Below are positions 53,250 to 62,333 of a stretch of DNA of 64,000 nucleotides, in pieces. The DNA comes from Candidatus Polarisedimenticolaceae bacterium. Lineage in GTDB: Bacteria; Acidobacteriota; Polarisedimenticolia; Polarisedimenticolales; DASRJG01. Position numbers and translations under genes: made by a program. Positions within the stretch are counted from its first letter, which is position 1, and each line of letters starts with the position of its first letter. The notes below the pieces were generated by a model. The model was not told where the DNA came from. It searched no databases and saw only the letters and a list, made by a program, of their open reading frames with translations. Location: assembly GCA_036275915.1 (NCBI GenBank), contig DASUCV010000001.1:1-64000 (forward strand), given 5' to 3'.

Positions 53250-53307
53250 ACAGCTTCCGAAACTCAGGCGGTAGCCCGGACCTCCGAGTTTCGGAAGCTG
53301 TCCCCTC
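53244..53307. repeat. 22-bp perfect inverted repeat (element E4), forming the end of the radical SAM gene
   Basis: Arms 53244-53265 and 53286-53307 are perfect reverse complements with a 20-nt loop; the outer end is GAGGGGACAGCTTCC, like the inner part of E2 and outer part of E3. The right arm and loop lie inside the radical SAM reading frame and supply its last residues (GDSFRNSEVRATA) and stop codon. Confidence 0.93.
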
Positions 53308-54532
53308 TCTTGAGCTCTCTCCGCAGCTGCGCGGCGAACACCTTCCGCATGAGCTTGAGCTTGAGCTCGCCGGCCCAGAAACGGCGCGGGTCGTGCTGGA
53401 GCCAGCGCGCCTCCTCGGGGAGCATCACGAGCGAGACGTGGACGTTGTCCGCGACGCCGATGGGGAGGCCGTTCGTCATGCACGCCTCGTAGAGGCGGCG
53501 GAAGACGGGGACGAGTTCCTCGGTCTTGGGCGGCGGCACGTCGGCGAAGTCGGTGGCTTGGAGCGGGCGGAAAACGCACACGGTCGGGATGGCGCCGACG
53601 CTCGCGATCCAGTCGATGGCGCGGATCGAGTCCTCCGGCGGCTCGAGCCCGGCGATGATCTCGCCGTTGACGACCCACGGCTCGAAGCCGCGGCCCGTCG
53701 TTCCGACCTCCTGCGCACAGTAGCGGATCGCCTCGAGGTAGCGGTCGAGCCCGTACTCGCGGTGCTTGCCGGGGCAGACGGCGGCGAACCGGTCGCGGTT
53801 CCAGATCTCGAAGCAGAAGGAAACGCGGTTGACCCCCATGCGGCGTAGCTCGCGGTAGCGGGCGAGGTCGTGGTGCGGCGGCGTCTGGACGCCGACCATC
53901 ACCTTCGTCGCTTCCTTGACCCGCTGGATGTACGGCTCGAGGATGTCGAGGTAGGTGTCCCCGTCGTAGTGGCCGGTGTTGAAGTCGACGTAGGTGATCC
54001 CGGACTCGGCGCGGGCCGCCTGGACGACCTCGACGACCTCCTCGATCGATTTCGAGTCGCCGTCGTCGGCGCCGAGGTTGAGGCCGACCGAGCAGAACCT
54101 GCACTGCTCCTTGTCGGGCTGCTTGAGCCAGTACTCGCAGACCTTGGACGGATAGACCCCCAGATAGGTCCCCTGGAGCGTCCCCACCATGGTCATCCGT
54201 TTGCCCGAGGTCGTTTTGCGGTTGTACCAGGCGGGCTGCGGAGAGAGTTGCACCGCGCTCACCGGCCCGACGGCGTCGTGGTCGAGCCACAGCGCATCCC
54301 CCCGCCAGCGGAAGACGTAGGGCGACGCTTGGGCGAACGACTCGACGACCGGGACGTTCGTCCAGAGGCCTCCCGGCAGGATGACCTCGAGCCCCGAGCC
54401 GAGACCCGCCCGGGTCCTCAGAATTTTGCGCCCGCCGTGCTCTTCCACGGCGTCCGAGTCGTCGATGCGCGCGCCTCGGCAGTAGAGGTCGAGCTTGAGG
54501 AGCCCCGGATTCTTGCGAACGTCGGTTTCCAT
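53264..54532 (-). CDS. Radical SAM protein with unusual CX11CX2C cluster motif
   Basis: The 422-residue protein starts at ATG 54532 (METDVRKNPG), 7 bp after a TATTCT box. The probable [4Fe-4S] ligands are Cys132, Cys144 and Cys147 (VCEYWLKQPDKEQCRFCSVG), a CX11CX2C spacing instead of CX3CX2C. A TIM-barrel core follows with TYVDFNTGHYDGDTYLDILEPYI, MVGVQTPPHHDLARYRELRRMGVNRVSFCFEIWN and GRGFEPWVVNGEIIAGLEPPEDSIRAIDWI. No known subfamily is recognised. The C-terminal 15 or so residues come from palindrome E4. It is divergent from the Rrf2 regulator across an operator-like array. Confidence 0.8.
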   Translation of the reverse strand: METDVRKNPGLLKLDLYCRGARIDDSDAVEEHGGRKILRTRAGLGSGLEVILPGGLWTNVPVVESFAQASPYVFRWRGDALWLDHDAVGPVSAVQLSPQPAWYNRKTTSGKRMTMVGTLQGTYLGVYPSKVCEYWLKQPDKEQCRFCSVGLNLGADDGDSKSIEEVVEVVQAARAESGITYVDFNTGHYDGDTYLDILEPYIQRVKEATKVMVGVQTPPHHDLARYRELRRMGVNRVSFCFEIWNRDRFAAVCPGKHREYGLDRYLEAIRYCAQEVGTTGRGFEPWVVNGEIIAGLEPPEDSIRAIDWIASVGAIPTVCVFRPLQATDFADVPPPKTEELVPVFRRLYEACMTNGLPIGVADNVHVSLVMLPEEARWLQHDPRRFWAGELKLKLMRKVFAAQLRRELKRGDSFRNSEVRATA

Positions 54533-54534
54533 TG

Positions 54535-54583
54535 CGGACAGAATACGTCCGCGGGCGTCCGTGCATCGGACCGAATTTGTCCG
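54535..54583. promoter_or_regulatory. Operator-like array of five GTCCG/CGGAC half-sites over the radical SAM promoter
   Basis: Half-sites: CGGAC 54535-54539, GTCCG 54547-54551, GTCCG 54557-54561, CGGAC 54567-54571, GTCCG 54579-54583, with spacers 7, 5, 5 and 7 nt. The first two form GCGGAC-N7-GTCCGC around the minus-strand TATTCT -10 box (54540-54545). Centres are 10-12 bp apart, close to one helical turn, so one protein could bind along one face. The Rrf2 protein encoded next door is a natural candidate. Confidence 0.6.
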
Positions 54584-54677
54584 TAAATCCCTTTCCAAGG
54601 TGCGCGCGGAGTTCTATAACCGAGCATCCGGGTCTCGAAAGGAAATTACTCCCGAGGCCCCGAGAGGTGGGTGACTC

Positions 54678-55124
54678 ATGGCGCTCCGACTGACTCGCGC
54701 AGGCGACTATGCGGTACGGGCGATGATCCACATCGGCTCGCTCCCCGACGGTGGCGTGGCGCTCAAGGACGAGATCGCGCTCGCCGAAGGAATCCCTCCG
54801 AGCTTCATGGCGAAGATCCTCCGGCAGCTCGTCCGCACCGGACTGCTCCGTTCGGCGCGCGGCGTCCACGGCGGGTTCGGCCTCGCGCGCGGCGCCGGCG
54901 ACATCAGCCTCCTGGACGTCGTCGAGGCGATCGAGGGCCCGATCCAGCTTACGGACTGCTCCCCCGATCCCGAGCGGTGCACCCTCTCGCACGACTGCCC
55001 CGCGAGCGGCGTCTGGCTCGAGGTCCAGCAGCGGATGACCGGTCTCCTCCGGGAGACGAGCCTCGAGGCGCTCCTGTCGGCGCCCCGGCGCAACCGGCGG
55101 GTGATGTACCGGATCAGTGGCTAA
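54678..55124 (+). CDS. Rrf2-family Fe-S transcriptional regulator
   Basis: The 148-residue regulator has an N-terminal winged helix (MALRLTRAGDYAVRAMIHI...GIPPSFMAKILRQLVRTGLLRSARGVHGGFGLAR) and a C-terminal cluster loop with Cys94, Cys101 and Cys107 (DCSPDPERCTLSHDC; CX6CX5C), as in IscR/NsrR-type proteins that sense Fe-S status, NO or oxidative stress. GAGAGGTG lies about 9 bp before the ATG. In the 145-bp gap a TATAAC (near 54615) could serve as -10. Divergent from the radical SAM gene, it may repress it. Confidence 0.9.
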   Translation: MALRLTRAGDYAVRAMIHIGSLPDGGVALKDEIALAEGIPPSFMAKILRQLVRTGLLRSARGVHGGFGLARGAGDISLLDVVEAIEGPIQLTDCSPDPERCTLSHDCPASGVWLEVQQRMTGLLRETSLEALLSAPRRNRRVMYRISG

Positions 55125-57488: not shown

Positions 57489-59648
57489 GTGGCCGATGCA
57501 GCCCCCAGGCCCCTTGTGGCGGCGATTCTCGCCGTGCTCCTCCTCGCGGGGGTCGCGATCGCGGGGTATCTCGCCGTCCATCACGAGAACCACGTCTACG
57601 GCGACGCGACCCTCAGCCTCGCGAACTGCCCCGAGACCGAGACGATCAACTGCGACGTCGTCAACTCGAGCGGCTTCTCGGAGGTCCTGGGCGTGCCGAT
57701 CGCGGCGTTCGCGATACCGACGTACCTGCTCCTCCTCGGCATGCTCGCCGTCTGCCGCCGCAATCCCGCCGTCCTCGCCCACGTGTTCACGATCGGCTTG
57801 CTCTGCGTCGCCTACTCGGCGTTCCTCTTCGTCGTCTCGAAGACGGTCGTCGGGTACCTTTGCCTGTGGTGCATGAGGCTCTACGCCGTGAACCTCTCCA
57901 TCCCGATCCTCTCGGCTTTCGCCGCGCGCCGCTCGCCCCAGTCGCTCGTCGCGGCGACGTTCCACGATCTCCGCCGGTTCCGGCCCGCCGTCGTTCGCGC
58001 GGGTGCGGCGTTCGTCGTGCTCCTCGGGATCACCGTCGCCGGCGATCGCGCCCTTCGCGCGCACGTCAAGGCGCAGGCGGCGGCGGAGCGCCATCGGATC
58101 GAGCAGGAGGGCGGCCCGACGGTGCCGGCGGTGCCCGAGACGCCCTCGGGTCCGTCATCCGGCCTCTCCCTCGTTCCTCCGGCCTACGCCGACGAGAAGC
58201 CTGCGCCCCCCGCGCCGTACAAGCTCGCCGGTCCTCTCCGGAAGCTCGACGGCGGGAAGGCCGCCCCGTTCGACCTCCAGGGACGCCTCGGCAAGGGGAA
58301 GCCGGTCGCGCTCATCTTCTGGGCGCCGAACTTCGCCTGGTCCGAGCGATCCCTCGTGTCGATGGCGCAGGCGCTCGCGAAGGATTATCCGGCGTTCGAG
58401 GTGTACGCAGTCGCGGGGAAGCGCGACGACCAGAAAGACGAGGATCTCGTCGAGCGGTTCGCGATGCTCGAGGTTCCCGCGTCGCTTCCGCTCCTCGCCG
58501 ACGACGGGTTCGCGGTGAGCAAGGCCCTCGCCGTCGAGGACGTGCCGAACGTCGCCGTGTTCTCCGCGATGGGGCAGCTCGTCGTCGCGAAGATCAAGAG
58601 CCCCGATCAGCTCCTCATCACGGGGGGCGGGAACAAGCCGGCGAGCGACGTCCTGCAGCAGGTGGCGAAGGGGGCCGAGGTCCCGCAGATCCAGCGCATG
58701 TTCCCGTATTACCCGGGCTCGGAGCTCGTCGGGCACTGCGCACCGCCGTTCCGCGGCAAGACCTTCGGCACCGGCGCACCTTACGCGTTCACCGGAAAGG
58801 GGAACGGGCGCCCGACGCTCGTCATGTTCTGGTCGTCGACCTGCAAGCACTGCCAGGTCGACGTGCCGCAGCTCGTCAAGTGGGTCAAGGCGCACCCGAA
58901 CGCCGCGGACATCGTCGGCGTCACGATCATCAAGAAGGACCAGGCCGGGCAGCCCTCGCACCGTGCGATCACGGAGCAGTACATCAAGGCGCAGGGAATC
59001 TCGTGGACGGTCGTCGAGGACCCCGACGGCGTCGTCACCCGAACGTACCGGAGCATCTCGACACCGACGACGTTCTTCGTCTCGCCGTCGGGCACCGTGA
59101 CCGACGTCTGGTACTACGCGCACGAAGAGGGCTTCGACGCGGCGATGGACCGCTCGCTCGCGACGGCGAAGGCCGGGGCGGCGACGGCATGCAGCGCCCC
59201 GGCCGAGCCGGACCGCCCGGCGCTGTCGATGAGCGTGATGTCGTCCGACGGCAAGCGCATCGAGCTCGCGAAGGCGGTGGGCGGCCCTACGCTCGTCCAC
59301 TTCTGGGCGACGTGGTGCAAGCCGTGCGTCGCCGAGCTGCCGTCGCTCGTGAAGTTCCGCGACACGATCGAGAAGGCGGGCACCGGCAAGGTCGTCCTCG
59401 TCTCGGTCGAAGGCGAGGAAGACGGGAAGCGCATCACGGATTTCCAGAAGACGCTCGGCGTCGATCTCCACTCCTATCGCGCACCGCAGGGCGGCGTGGC
59501 CGGCAAGATCGATCCGGCGTTCCGCGTCCCGCGGACCTACGTCGTCGACGGGAAGGGCGGCGTGCTCGAGGAGCGGCAGGGGGCGCAGGACTGGGCGGAC
59601 CCGGCGTTCGCGGAGGGGATCAAGGCCTGGCTCGACGCCGCGCGCTAG
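57489..59648 (+). CDS. VKOR domain fused to three thioredoxin-like domains
   Basis: The 719-residue disulfide-forming protein. An N-terminal VKOR module (residues 1-145, four or five TMs) has loop cysteines Cys47 and Cys55 (LANCPETETINCDVVNSSG) and the CxxC pair Cys125-Cys128 (GYLCLWCMR). A linker contains YADEKPAPPAPYKL. Thioredoxin-like domain 1 (about 230-390) has APNFAWSER where CxxC should be, so it is redox-dead. Domain 2 (about 420-555) has Cys452-Cys455 (CKHC). Domain 3 (about 580-719) has Cys610-Cys613 (WCKPC). It would pass electrons from substrates to quinone through VKOR in the periplasm. Three thioredoxin domains on one VKOR is unusual. Confidence 0.88.
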   Translation: MADAAPRPLVAAILAVLLLAGVAIAGYLAVHHENHVYGDATLSLANCPETETINCDVVNSSGFSEVLGVPIAAFAIPTYLLLLGMLAVCRRNPAVLAHVFTIGLLCVAYSAFLFVVSKTVVGYLCLWCMRLYAVNLSIPILSAFAARRSPQSLVAATFHDLRRFRPAVVRAGAAFVVLLGITVAGDRALRAHVKAQAAAERHRIEQEGGPTVPAVPETPSGPSSGLSLVPPAYADEKPAPPAPYKLAGPLRKLDGGKAAPFDLQGRLGKGKPVALIFWAPNFAWSERSLVSMAQALAKDYPAFEVYAVAGKRDDQKDEDLVERFAMLEVPASLPLLADDGFAVSKALAVEDVPNVAVFSAMGQLVVAKIKSPDQLLITGGGNKPASDVLQQVAKGAEVPQIQRMFPYYPGSELVGHCAPPFRGKTFGTGAPYAFTGKGNGRPTLVMFWSSTCKHCQVDVPQLVKWVKAHPNAADIVGVTIIKKDQAGQPSHRAITEQYIKAQGISWTVVEDPDGVVTRTYRSISTPTTFFVSPSGTVTDVWYYAHEEGFDAAMDRSLATAKAGAATACSAPAEPDRPALSMSVMSSDGKRIELAKAVGGPTLVHFWATWCKPCVAELPSLVKFRDTIEKAGTGKVVLVSVEGEEDGKRITDFQKTLGVDLHSYRAPQGGVAGKIDPAFRVPRTYVVDGKGGVLEERQGAQDWADPAFAEGIKAWLDAAR

Positions 59649-59651
59649 ACT
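59646..59651 (+). promoter_or_regulatory. -10 box TAGACT formed partly by the VKOR stop codon
   Basis: TAGACT ends 8 bp before GTG 59660; its TAG is the stop codon of the VKOR-fusion gene. A leaderless murL mRNA is predicted. Confidence 0.45.
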
Positions 59652-59659
59652 CCTCGCTC

Positions 59660-61015
59660 GTGATCGAGCGACGGCCGCTGCCCTACGACACCCTCGAGCT
59701 GACCCACCGCGCGATCGACGGGCGTCGCGTGCGGCTGGGCTACGCGCTGGTCGCACCGGCCCTAGCGCGGGTCGATCTCGAGGAGACGCTCGAGATTCCG
59801 CCGTCGCTCGGACCGCTGCGGGACGGCGCGTGGGCGCCTCGCCTCCTCGCCGCGCTCCATCTCGCCGCGGGCACGTCGTACTGGAAGACCTGCCTCCCGC
59901 CGCGCATCGTCGTCCCGGGCGATCCGCTGTCCGAAGACGACGCCGCGTTCTGGAACCGCGTCTACACGGCCGGACTCGCGGAATTCTTCTACCGGAACGG
60001 CATCGATCCGACCGGCCTCGCTCCTTTTTCCGGGGAGCGAAAGACGGCGGCTCCTTCCACCGCGGAACCATCCGGCGAAACGCTCCTCCTCTGGGGCGGC
60101 GGGAAGGACTCCGTCGTCTCGCACGAGGCGCTCCGTGAAGGCGGCATCGACCACGATCTCCTCACGATCGGACGCGCGTGGGAGCCCACGGCCCGGTCGG
60201 GGGTGGTCGCCGGGACGACGCACCACGTGGCCAAGCGGACGCTCGACCCGAAGCTCTTCGAGCTGAACGCCTCCGGCGCGTGGAACGGGCACGTGCCGGT
60301 CAGCGCCTATCTCGCGTTCGCGGGGCTCCTCCTCGCCGCGCTCGGCGGCCGCCAGGCCGTCATCGCCTCGAACGAGGCGAGCGCCTCCTCCGGCAATACG
60401 ATCTGGAACGGGCTCGACGTCAACCATCAGTGGAGCAAGTCGCTCGAGTTCGAGCGCGCGGCACGCGCGTGGCTTTCGCGCCACACGGGCGGTACCCTCG
60501 ATTACGTCAGCCTGTTGCGGCCGCTTTCGGAGCTTCGAATCACGAAGGCGTTCACCACGCATCCTGCGTACTTCGAGGCGGTCAGCTCGTGCAACCGCAA
60601 CTTCCGGCAGACCGCGGACGCGCCCGCGCGGTGGTGCCTCGCGTGCGCGAAGTGCGTCTTCGTCGCGCTCATGGCGCGGCCTTTCCTCTCCGAGACGGAC
60701 TACCACCGCCTCTTCGGCGGCGACCCGCTCGCAGATCCCGAGAACGTGTCCTACGTCGAGGAGCTGCTCGGCCTGCGCGGCATGAAGCCGTTCGAGTGCG
60801 TCGGTACCCCCGACGAGAGCGCAGTCGCGCTCAAGCTCGCGAAGGAGGCGGGACGGCCGTTGCCGCACGGCGTCATGACGGCGCTCCACGAAGAGCTGAC
60901 CCTTCGCGACATCGACTGGGCCGGCGCGACGTCTCGCGCCCTCGCCCGCGGCGACGATCACGCGCTCTCCCCTGCGCTCCTCGCGGCACTCGATGGCTAT
61001 CTCGCTCGGCACTGA
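59660..61015 (+). CDS. murL: UDP-MurNAc-L-Ala-L-Glu epimerase MurL
   Basis: The 451-residue PP-loop-type protein has the ATP motif WGGGKDS (Gly146-Ser151) and a cysteine block SCNRNFRQTADAPARWCLACAKC near residues 310-335. In Xanthomonas MurL epimerises the L-Glu of UDP-MurNAc-L-Ala-L-Glu to D-Glu, working with MurD2. The same pair is here, with murD2 overlapping by 23 bp, so the recognition is firm on context. Start GTG 59660 chosen from the TAGACT spacing. Confidence 0.88.
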   Translation: MIERRPLPYDTLELTHRAIDGRRVRLGYALVAPALARVDLEETLEIPPSLGPLRDGAWAPRLLAALHLAAGTSYWKTCLPPRIVVPGDPLSEDDAAFWNRVYTAGLAEFFYRNGIDPTGLAPFSGERKTAAPSTAEPSGETLLLWGGGKDSVVSHEALREGGIDHDLLTIGRAWEPTARSGVVAGTTHHVAKRTLDPKLFELNASGAWNGHVPVSAYLAFAGLLLAALGGRQAVIASNEASASSGNTIWNGLDVNHQWSKSLEFERAARAWLSRHTGGTLDYVSLLRPLSELRITKAFTTHPAYFEAVSSCNRNFRQTADAPARWCLACAKCVFVALMARPFLSETDYHRLFGGDPLADPENVSYVEELLGLRGMKPFECVGTPDESAVALKLAKEAGRPLPHGVMTALHEELTLRDIDWAGATSRALARGDDHALSPALLAALDGYLARH

Positions 61016-62333
61016 GACGCGCGCCGGGGTCTTCGGCTACGGAGCCGAAGGACGCGCGAGCGTGGCCTGGCTCCTGAGGCGGCGTTGCCTCGCCGTCCGC
61101 GTCATCGCGGCCGCGCGCCCCGCCGATCTGCCCGACGGCGTCCCGTGGATCGACGAGCGCGATTCCGCCGCTCTCGACGGCCTCGATCTCGTCCTCAAGT
61201 CCCCGGGGATCAAGCCGTCGCACCCGCTCCTCCTCGCGGCGGCGTCGCGCGGCTTACCCGTGACGAGCGCGACCGCGATCTTCGTCGCGCTTGCCCGGCG
61301 CGAGCGGCTCGCCGTCGTCGGCGTGACCGGCAGCAAGGGAAAGTCGACGACGGCGTCGTTGATCCACCGCACGCTCGAAGCGGCCGGCGTCCCGTCCGTT
61401 CTCGTCGGGAACATCGGGCGTCCGGCGCTCGACGTGCTGGAAGACGCCGTGAGCGTGCGGCCGGTCGTCGTCTACGAGATGTCGAGCTACCAGACGCACG
61501 ATCTCACGCTGGGCCCTTCGGTCGCGGTGATCACGCGCCTCTTCCCCGAGCACCTCGATTGGCACGGCGATGCCGGAGCCTATTACGCGTCCAAGCTGCG
61601 CATCGCCGCGACGCAGCGACCCGACGACGTCACCGTGTGGAACGCGGGCGACCTCGAGCTGGCGCGCCGTTTCCCGTTCGGTCCCGCCCGCCACGTCGCC
61701 TACGGCGGCAGCTCGGGGTTCCGGTTCGAAGGCGGCGCCTTCCGCCGCGGCGACGAGGTCCTCTTCAGCGACGTCCGGATGCTCCTGCGCGGGCCTCACA
61801 ACCGCGCCAACGCGTGCGCCGCGCTCGCCGCCGCGTCGCTCTTCGGCGCGAGCCCCGCTCACCTCGAGGAGGTGCTCGCGGACTTCCGGGGACTCCCCCA
61901 CCGTCTCGAGGACCTCGGCCTCCACGGCGGCATCCGCTGGATCAACGACTCGATCTCGACCGCGCCGGAAGCCGCGGTCGCGGCGCTCGAGGCGTTCGGC
62001 GGCGAGGTCGCGACCTACATCGGCGGCGGCACCGACCGCGGCTTCGACTTCGCGCCGCTCGCGGAGGCGCTCCTGGCGCGCGCGATCCCCAATGTCGTGC
62101 TGGTTCCGGAGACCGGCTCCAGGATCAAGGAGGCCGTCCTCGCCCGCGACCCCTCCGCCGCGAGCCGGCTCCACGCCGCGCGGGACCTCGCGGACGCGGT
62201 GGCCCTGGCGCGCCGCCTCACGCCGCAGGGACGCACCGTGCTTTTCTCCCCCGCCTCCCCGAGCTACGGTCCGTTCGCCAACTTTGAGGAGCGCGGGGAT
62301 AGACTGCGCGCCTACGTCCAGGAGGCGTCATGA
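60993..62333 (+). CDS. murD2: UDP-N-acetylmuramoyl-L-alanine--L-glutamate ligase MurD2
   Basis: The 446-residue Mur ligase has an N-terminal Rossmann domain (GVFGYGAEGRASVAWLL), ATP-binding VGVTGSKGKSTTASLIH, central motif YEMSSYQTHDL (metal), HNRANACAALAAASL and the C-terminal domain (RWINDSISTAPEAAVAAL, then a FSPASPSYGPFANFEERG end). It is a MurD relative; adjacency to MurL assigns it as the L-Glu-adding MurD2. ATG 60993 lies inside murL. Confidence 0.88.
   Translation: MAISLGTETRAGVFGYGAEGRASVAWLLRRRCLAVRVIAAARPADLPDGVPWIDERDSAALDGLDLVLKSPGIKPSHPLLLAAASRGLPVTSATAIFVALARRERLAVVGVTGSKGKSTTASLIHRTLEAAGVPSVLVGNIGRPALDVLEDAVSVRPVVVYEMSSYQTHDLTLGPSVAVITRLFPEHLDWHGDAGAYYASKLRIAATQRPDDVTVWNAGDLELARRFPFGPARHVAYGGSSGFRFEGGAFRRGDEVLFSDVRMLLRGPHNRANACAALAAASLFGASPAHLEEVLADFRGLPHRLEDLGLHGGIRWINDSISTAPEAAVAALEAFGGEVATYIGGGTDRGFDFAPLAEALLARAIPNVVLVPETGSRIKEAVLARDPSAASRLHAARDLADAVALARRLTPQGRTVLFSPASPSYGPFANFEERGDRLRAYVQEAS

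Follow-up and report, generated by a model that had tools for sequence, protein, structure and literature searches.

What role might be fulfilled by a VKOR domain that carries three thioredoxin folds, one of them without cysteines, within a single polypeptide chain? This question is raised by a gene in the window, the 64,000-nucleotide stretch of DNA from a Candidatus Polarisedimenticolaceae bacterium that was analyzed here, and whose product had been predicted from the letters alone to join VKOR to one dead and two active thioredoxin domains. The gene is a forward-strand open reading frame (57489-59648) of 719 codons that starts with GTG at 57489 and stops at 59646-59648; an alternative TTG start is located 21 bases further upstream, and a lepA-like open reading frame, named from its sequence without a family search, has its stop 38 bases before the GTG. 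Eight proteins from the same class align with the 719-amino-acid product at 41-53% identity across most or all of its length, and a chance open reading frame or a mis-assembly is thereby ruled out.

Domain architecture of the fusion protein

The open reading frame, Pfam matches and orthologues together define a product whose VKOR domain, with its four redox cysteines intact, is followed by a fifth membrane helix, then by a linker rich in Pro and Ala and finally by three thioredoxin folds, designated D1 (dead), D2 (CKHC) and D3 (WCKPC); all features described below lie on the forward strand. Specifically, Pfam places VKOR at amino acids 13-141 (6e-16), AhpC-TSA at 414-539 (2e-25) and Redoxin at 577-702 (4e-17), and the full-length AlphaFold2 model (pLDDT 86.6, pTM 0.78) is composed of five long membrane-type helices and three domains with a thioredoxin-like order of strands and helices.

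The four-helix VKOR domain (amino acids 13-141; 57525..57911) scores 59.2 bits against PF07884, above the curated cut-off of 27.5, its profile matches the structures 4nv2 and 3kp9 as well as human VKORC1, and its helices are present in the model. Both cysteine pairs of the family are conserved: the quinone-side CLWC motif in the last core helix (C125 and C128; 57861..57872) is invariant, and the periplasmic-loop pair (C47 and C55; 57627..57653) is kept in all orthologues holding that stretch. Among the nine same-class proteins, including that of the window, the invariant cysteines are C55, C125, C128, C417, C452, C455, C568, C610 and C613, with C47 kept wherever the sequence includes that stretch. 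Downstream of this domain lie the fifth transmembrane helix with an extension (amino acids 166-206, helical in the model; 57984..58106) and the Pro/Ala-rich linker (amino acids 207-246; 58107..58226), a region of low pLDDT, variable length and 27% mean identity. A fifth helix preceding a thioredoxin tail has been described for known VKOR-Trx proteins (PMC4555120), and it is found here, according to the model, together with C-terminal thioredoxin folds bearing CxxC (CKHC and CKPC). The usual, if not strictly defining, trait of a single thioredoxin-like domain is absent, and because three such folds are present instead of one, the protein is filed as a VKOR-Trx variant.

The first of these folds, D1 (amino acids 247-405; 58227..58703), has no Pfam match of its own across these residues, and is, as predicted by profile search and by AlphaFold2 and Foldseek, a thioredoxin fold. 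Specifically, a profile of 27 D1 sequences searched against the PDB finds YkuV as its best match (6e-13), followed by StoA, DsbF and ResA. When D1 is modeled alone, AlphaFold2 yields a pLDDT of 94.7 and a pTM of 0.90, and Foldseek matches this model to DsbE, DsbF and ResA with E-values of about 1e-7 to 1e-6 (best 2.4e-7) and with TM-scores of approximately 0.6 by query that reach 0.78 by target. Assignment of D1 as a peroxiredoxin was considered and rejected, as the top Foldseek matches are of the DsbE/ResA/DsbF type and peroxiredoxins stand lower in the ranking. Where live relatives have WCxxC, D1 reads FWAPNFAWSE (58317..58346); alignment to the WSISCHLC of YkuV indicates that both cysteines have been replaced, and no cysteine occupies the active-site columns in any of the 27 D1 sequences, although the cis-proline position (P353; 58545..58547) is invariant in the same alignment. 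D1 is dead in 11 of 11 four-part proteins (that of the window, eight from the same class and two from Bdellovibrionota). Mean pairwise identity in the same-class set is 0.48 for D1, 0.54 for VKOR, 0.52 for D2, 0.52 for D3 and 0.27 for the linker; the similarity of the D1 value to those of the live domains, set against the linker, argues that D1 is not decaying. Most likely D1 lacks redox chemistry, and it may serve as a rigid spacer, a scaffold or a substrate-binding domain.

The remaining folds retain their active sites. D2 (amino acids 409-562; 58713..59174) is a StoA/ResA-type domain identified by AhpC-TSA (2e-25), by StoA (3erw, 2e-18) and by the model, and its CKHC (TCKHC; C452 and C455; 58842..58853) conforms to a CxHC motif that is invariant in nine orthologues. 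D3 (amino acids 575-718; 59211..59642) is of the TlpA/ResA type, as indicated by Redoxin (4e-17), by PDB matches to 3kcm, ResA and TlpA, and by the model; its CKPC (WCKPC; C610 and C613; 59316..59327) is invariant in the nine same-class proteins, and C610 is lost in one Bdellovibrionota genome (G427). Scores against curated NCBIfam models fall below cut-off (81.7 versus 170 for ResA and 51.9 versus 123 for DsbE), a result of little weight given that these models fit single-domain proteins. In addition to the active sites, the orthologue alignment reveals two extra invariant cysteines, C417 at the start of D2 (58737..58739), which is also found in a VKOR-D2-only protein (L161), and C568 in the D2-D3 linker (59190..59192). 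At a guess, these two residues could form a disulfide that staples the entry of D2 to the D2-D3 linker. The original prediction thus holds with respect to the motifs it listed and to the three thioredoxin folds, one of them lacking active-site cysteines, that are joined to a VKOR domain, which is intact.

Distribution and relatives of the four-part form

VKOR was found in 14 of 41 genomes of the class, nine of which, including that of the window, encode the four-part form; a tenth (G036), in which a D3 fragment lies at a contig end, is likely. One orthologue (L007) ends at a contig edge, and the starts of two others (L006 and L010) are unclear. Within the order to which the window belongs, the form is present in one of ten genomes, namely the window's own, and among 396 sampled Acidobacteriota genomes the full form was seen in this class only. 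Sampling of 291 genomes of Bdellovibrionota, to which the MAG carrying L032 belongs, revealed two further cases (G396 and G427), and none was detected in 349 sampled genomes around G399 or, in a survey run without a positive control, in 346 sampled genomes of the phylum of G398. In total, the profile survey covered about 1,380 genomes of four phyla and found the four-part layout only in the window's class and the two Bdellovibrionota genomes, and its absence elsewhere in that survey marks the layout as rare but real. A contig scan with two short patterns, which does not amount to a complete census, gave mainly matches to thioredoxin domains alone. Consistent with the earlier suggestion that the architecture is unusual, no report of a VKOR with three thioredoxin domains was found in the open-access literature searched. 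Taken together, these data establish the three-thioredoxin VKOR fusion as a real, rare and conserved elaboration of the known VKOR-Trx enzyme type.

Phylogenetic analysis separates the fusions into two old, well-supported clades, each spanning families and both including members of two genera (g14 and g22); this pattern is consistent with an ancient duplication followed by losses, or with transfer. Other VKOR fusions of the class (L112, L122 and L123) seem, by eye, to carry one C-terminal DsbA-like domain rather than three. Two of these (L123 and L122, from G021 and G035) fuse VKOR to the DsbA-like domain, and L123 also possesses a long N-terminal extension that resembles, again by eye, a C39 peptidase-like domain.

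The class commonly encodes secreted proteins composed of a dead D1 and a live D2, one of them in the window's own genome (L142; G000:C11:149196-150200). Like the fusion, these stand-alone proteins display the D1-D2 order, a dead D1 and, usually, CxHC in D2; unlike the fusion, they lack VKOR, D3 and the conserved C417/C568 pair. The fusion therefore has its D1-D2 part in common with a module that also exists by itself and whose D1 is likewise dead. The secreted dead-plus-live thioredoxin protein is itself widespread, as L142 and its relatives (A2) illustrate.

Relatives in Bdellovibrionota, each observed in one genome, bear on the relative importance of D2 and D3. G446 encodes VKOR and D2 only, retains the equivalent of C417, has no D3 remnant after VKOR-D2 and is adjoined by the same downstream gene family, while in G427 the cysteines of VKOR and D2 are retained and D3 reads WSPQGPSC, the first cysteine having been lost. 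Because one relative has VKOR-D2 alone and the other has lost C610, D2 appears to be the partner that VKOR needs, and comparison of these sequences suggests that D2 is core and D3 accessory. At three Bdellovibrionota loci (L032, L160 and L161) a gene for a small exported protein, in which a PAILNLN stretch is conserved, comes after the VKOR gene, and at two (L032 and L163) a gene resembling those of oligopeptide transporters comes before it.

Genome context and proposed mechanism

No DsbB match was found in the window's genome and the fusion is the only VKOR encoded there, making it the only recognizable quinone-linked disulfide generator found in that genome; seven Thioredoxin_4 (DsbA-like) matches, some partial, are also present. 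Across the class, VKOR and DsbB matches are both missing from about 24 of 41 genomes, which suggests that disulfide formation in the class may have other sources, and nearly all have DsbA-like Thioredoxin_4 matches. Within the window, the fusion gene is followed by a stretch (59651-62333) that encodes first a MurL-like epimerase, scoring below its family's curated cut-off, and then a MurD-family ligase, an arrangement known from the L-glutamate route to muropeptides; upstream of the fusion gene are a radical SAM protein on the reverse strand (53264-54598) and a divergently oriented Rrf2-family regulator on the forward strand (54678-55124).

The function best suited to the anatomy, cysteine conservation, predicted folds and distribution described above is that of a quinone-coupled oxidative-folding enzyme in which D2 is the core partner of VKOR, a reading we regard as reasonably probable and whose mechanism is borrowed from what is known of the VKOR family, including the quinone coupling and the direction of electron flow. 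As a single-chain, quinone-coupled system, the protein would form disulfide bonds on the outer side of the cytoplasmic membrane. VKOR would reduce quinone and thereby form a disulfide at CLWC, and the loop pair C47/C55 would hand a disulfide to the CxHC of D2, its cognate thioredoxin. D3, with its CxPC, may provide a second, distal thiol-disulfide arm that is either fed by D2 or acts on substrates through oxidation or isomerization. D1, whether as a rigid spacer or by binding substrate, may position the two live domains above the membrane domain. Two points weigh against this reading: D2 and D3 belong to the TlpA/ResA/StoA type, whose best-studied members act mostly as reductants, and the many class genomes lacking both VKOR and DsbB matches may obtain their disulfides from other sources.

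A more specific form of this reading draws an analogy to PDI, such that D1 would bind unfolded clients in the manner of PDI b-type domains, D2 would oxidize and D3 would isomerize, all tethered to VKOR. In keeping with such a bacterial counterpart of PDI and its oxidase are the combination of a dead fold with two live ones whose motifs differ (CxHC versus CxPC), the strong conservation of D1 with its cis-proline and a full-length pTM of 0.78, suggestive of defined packing. G446, however, does without both D1 and D3, and client binding by D1 and isomerase activity of D3 are putative; we hold this analogue to be unlikely, albeit worth entertaining. The same standing, at perhaps one chance in several, is given to the idea that a quinone-linked generator, an oxidizing arm, an isomerizing arm and a client-capturing dead thioredoxin form one single-chain oxidative-folding machine, in effect a PDI merged with its oxidase. 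Alternatively, D1 may be an inherited passenger, never needed in the fusion and acquired when a stand-alone D1-D2 protein was fused whole. Stand-alone proteins of this kind, with D1 already dead, are indeed widespread in the class and occur in the same genome, but since the old split D1 has retained an identity close to that of the live domains, which is unexpected of a passenger and renders this account improbable.

It had also been proposed that the fusion forms a self-contained relay for cytochrome c maturation or oxidative folding. The oxidative-folding half of this proposal is plausible in light of the anatomy and of the lack of DsbB and of any other VKOR in the genome, but the half concerning cytochrome c finds little in its favor. 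According to the latter, a TlpA/ResA-type D3 would handle apocytochrome thiols with D2 and VKOR as the redox supply, and the closest solved or curated relatives of D3 do include ResA, TlpA and DsbE/CcmG. VKOR oxidizes, however, whereas ResA and CcmG must be kept reduced. The window's genome moreover encodes a CcdA-type protein adjoining a TlpA-like one (C4:408247-409379), and this pair is another candidate for the reductive step of cytochrome c maturation. No cytochrome c maturation genes were recognized near the window's gene or, by eye, near six orthologues, and inspection by eye of rough open reading frame calls at these six loci revealed no recurring, recognizable partner genes, so that a cytochrome c operon was rejected. 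Finally, G446 lacks D3 and the D3 of G427 is crippled. A role in cytochrome c maturation is therefore considered very improbable, and quinone-coupled oxidative folding centered on VKOR and D2 remains the preferred reading.

Comparison with known thiol-disulfide systems

VKOR-Trx fusions serve as models for the transfer of disulfides from a quinone-linked enzyme to a thioredoxin. In the fusion described here, nature has joined VKOR to three thioredoxin folds, one of which is conserved despite having no cysteines, and this arrangement allows one to ask directly whether a single chain can accommodate oxidation, isomerization and client binding. It also draws attention to a module of one dead and one live thioredoxin fold that is widespread in Acidobacteriota.

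One close structural reference is the Synechococcus VKOR-Trx protein (PDB entries 3kp9, 4nv2, 4nv5 and 4nv6), whose structures are matched by the VKOR profile. This protein shares with that of the window a VKOR domain with two cysteine pairs, a fifth helix and a C-terminal thioredoxin-fold domain, yet it is 291 amino acids long and has one thioredoxin domain, as compared to three, one without cysteines, in the window's protein. More generally, prokaryotic VKOR fusions carry a thioredoxin-like domain at the C-terminus or, in some taxa, at the N-terminus (PMC4555120). A one-domain VKOR-DsbA fusion from Clostridium sp., shown to complement an E. coli dsbA dsbB mutant (PMC12453122), likewise joins VKOR to a thioredoxin-fold oxidase, but that oxidase is a single DsbA domain rather than three domains of the StoA/ResA type. 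StoA, ResA and TlpA themselves resemble D2, D3 and, cysteines aside, D1 in fold and sequence; unlike the window's protein, each consists of one such domain that is not joined to a quinone-linked oxidase. Eukaryotic PDI, whose b-type domains are non-catalytic, offers an analogy in which nothing more than a shared fold is claimed; it too mixes live with dead thioredoxin folds within a single polypeptide, but has no covalent link to its oxidase.
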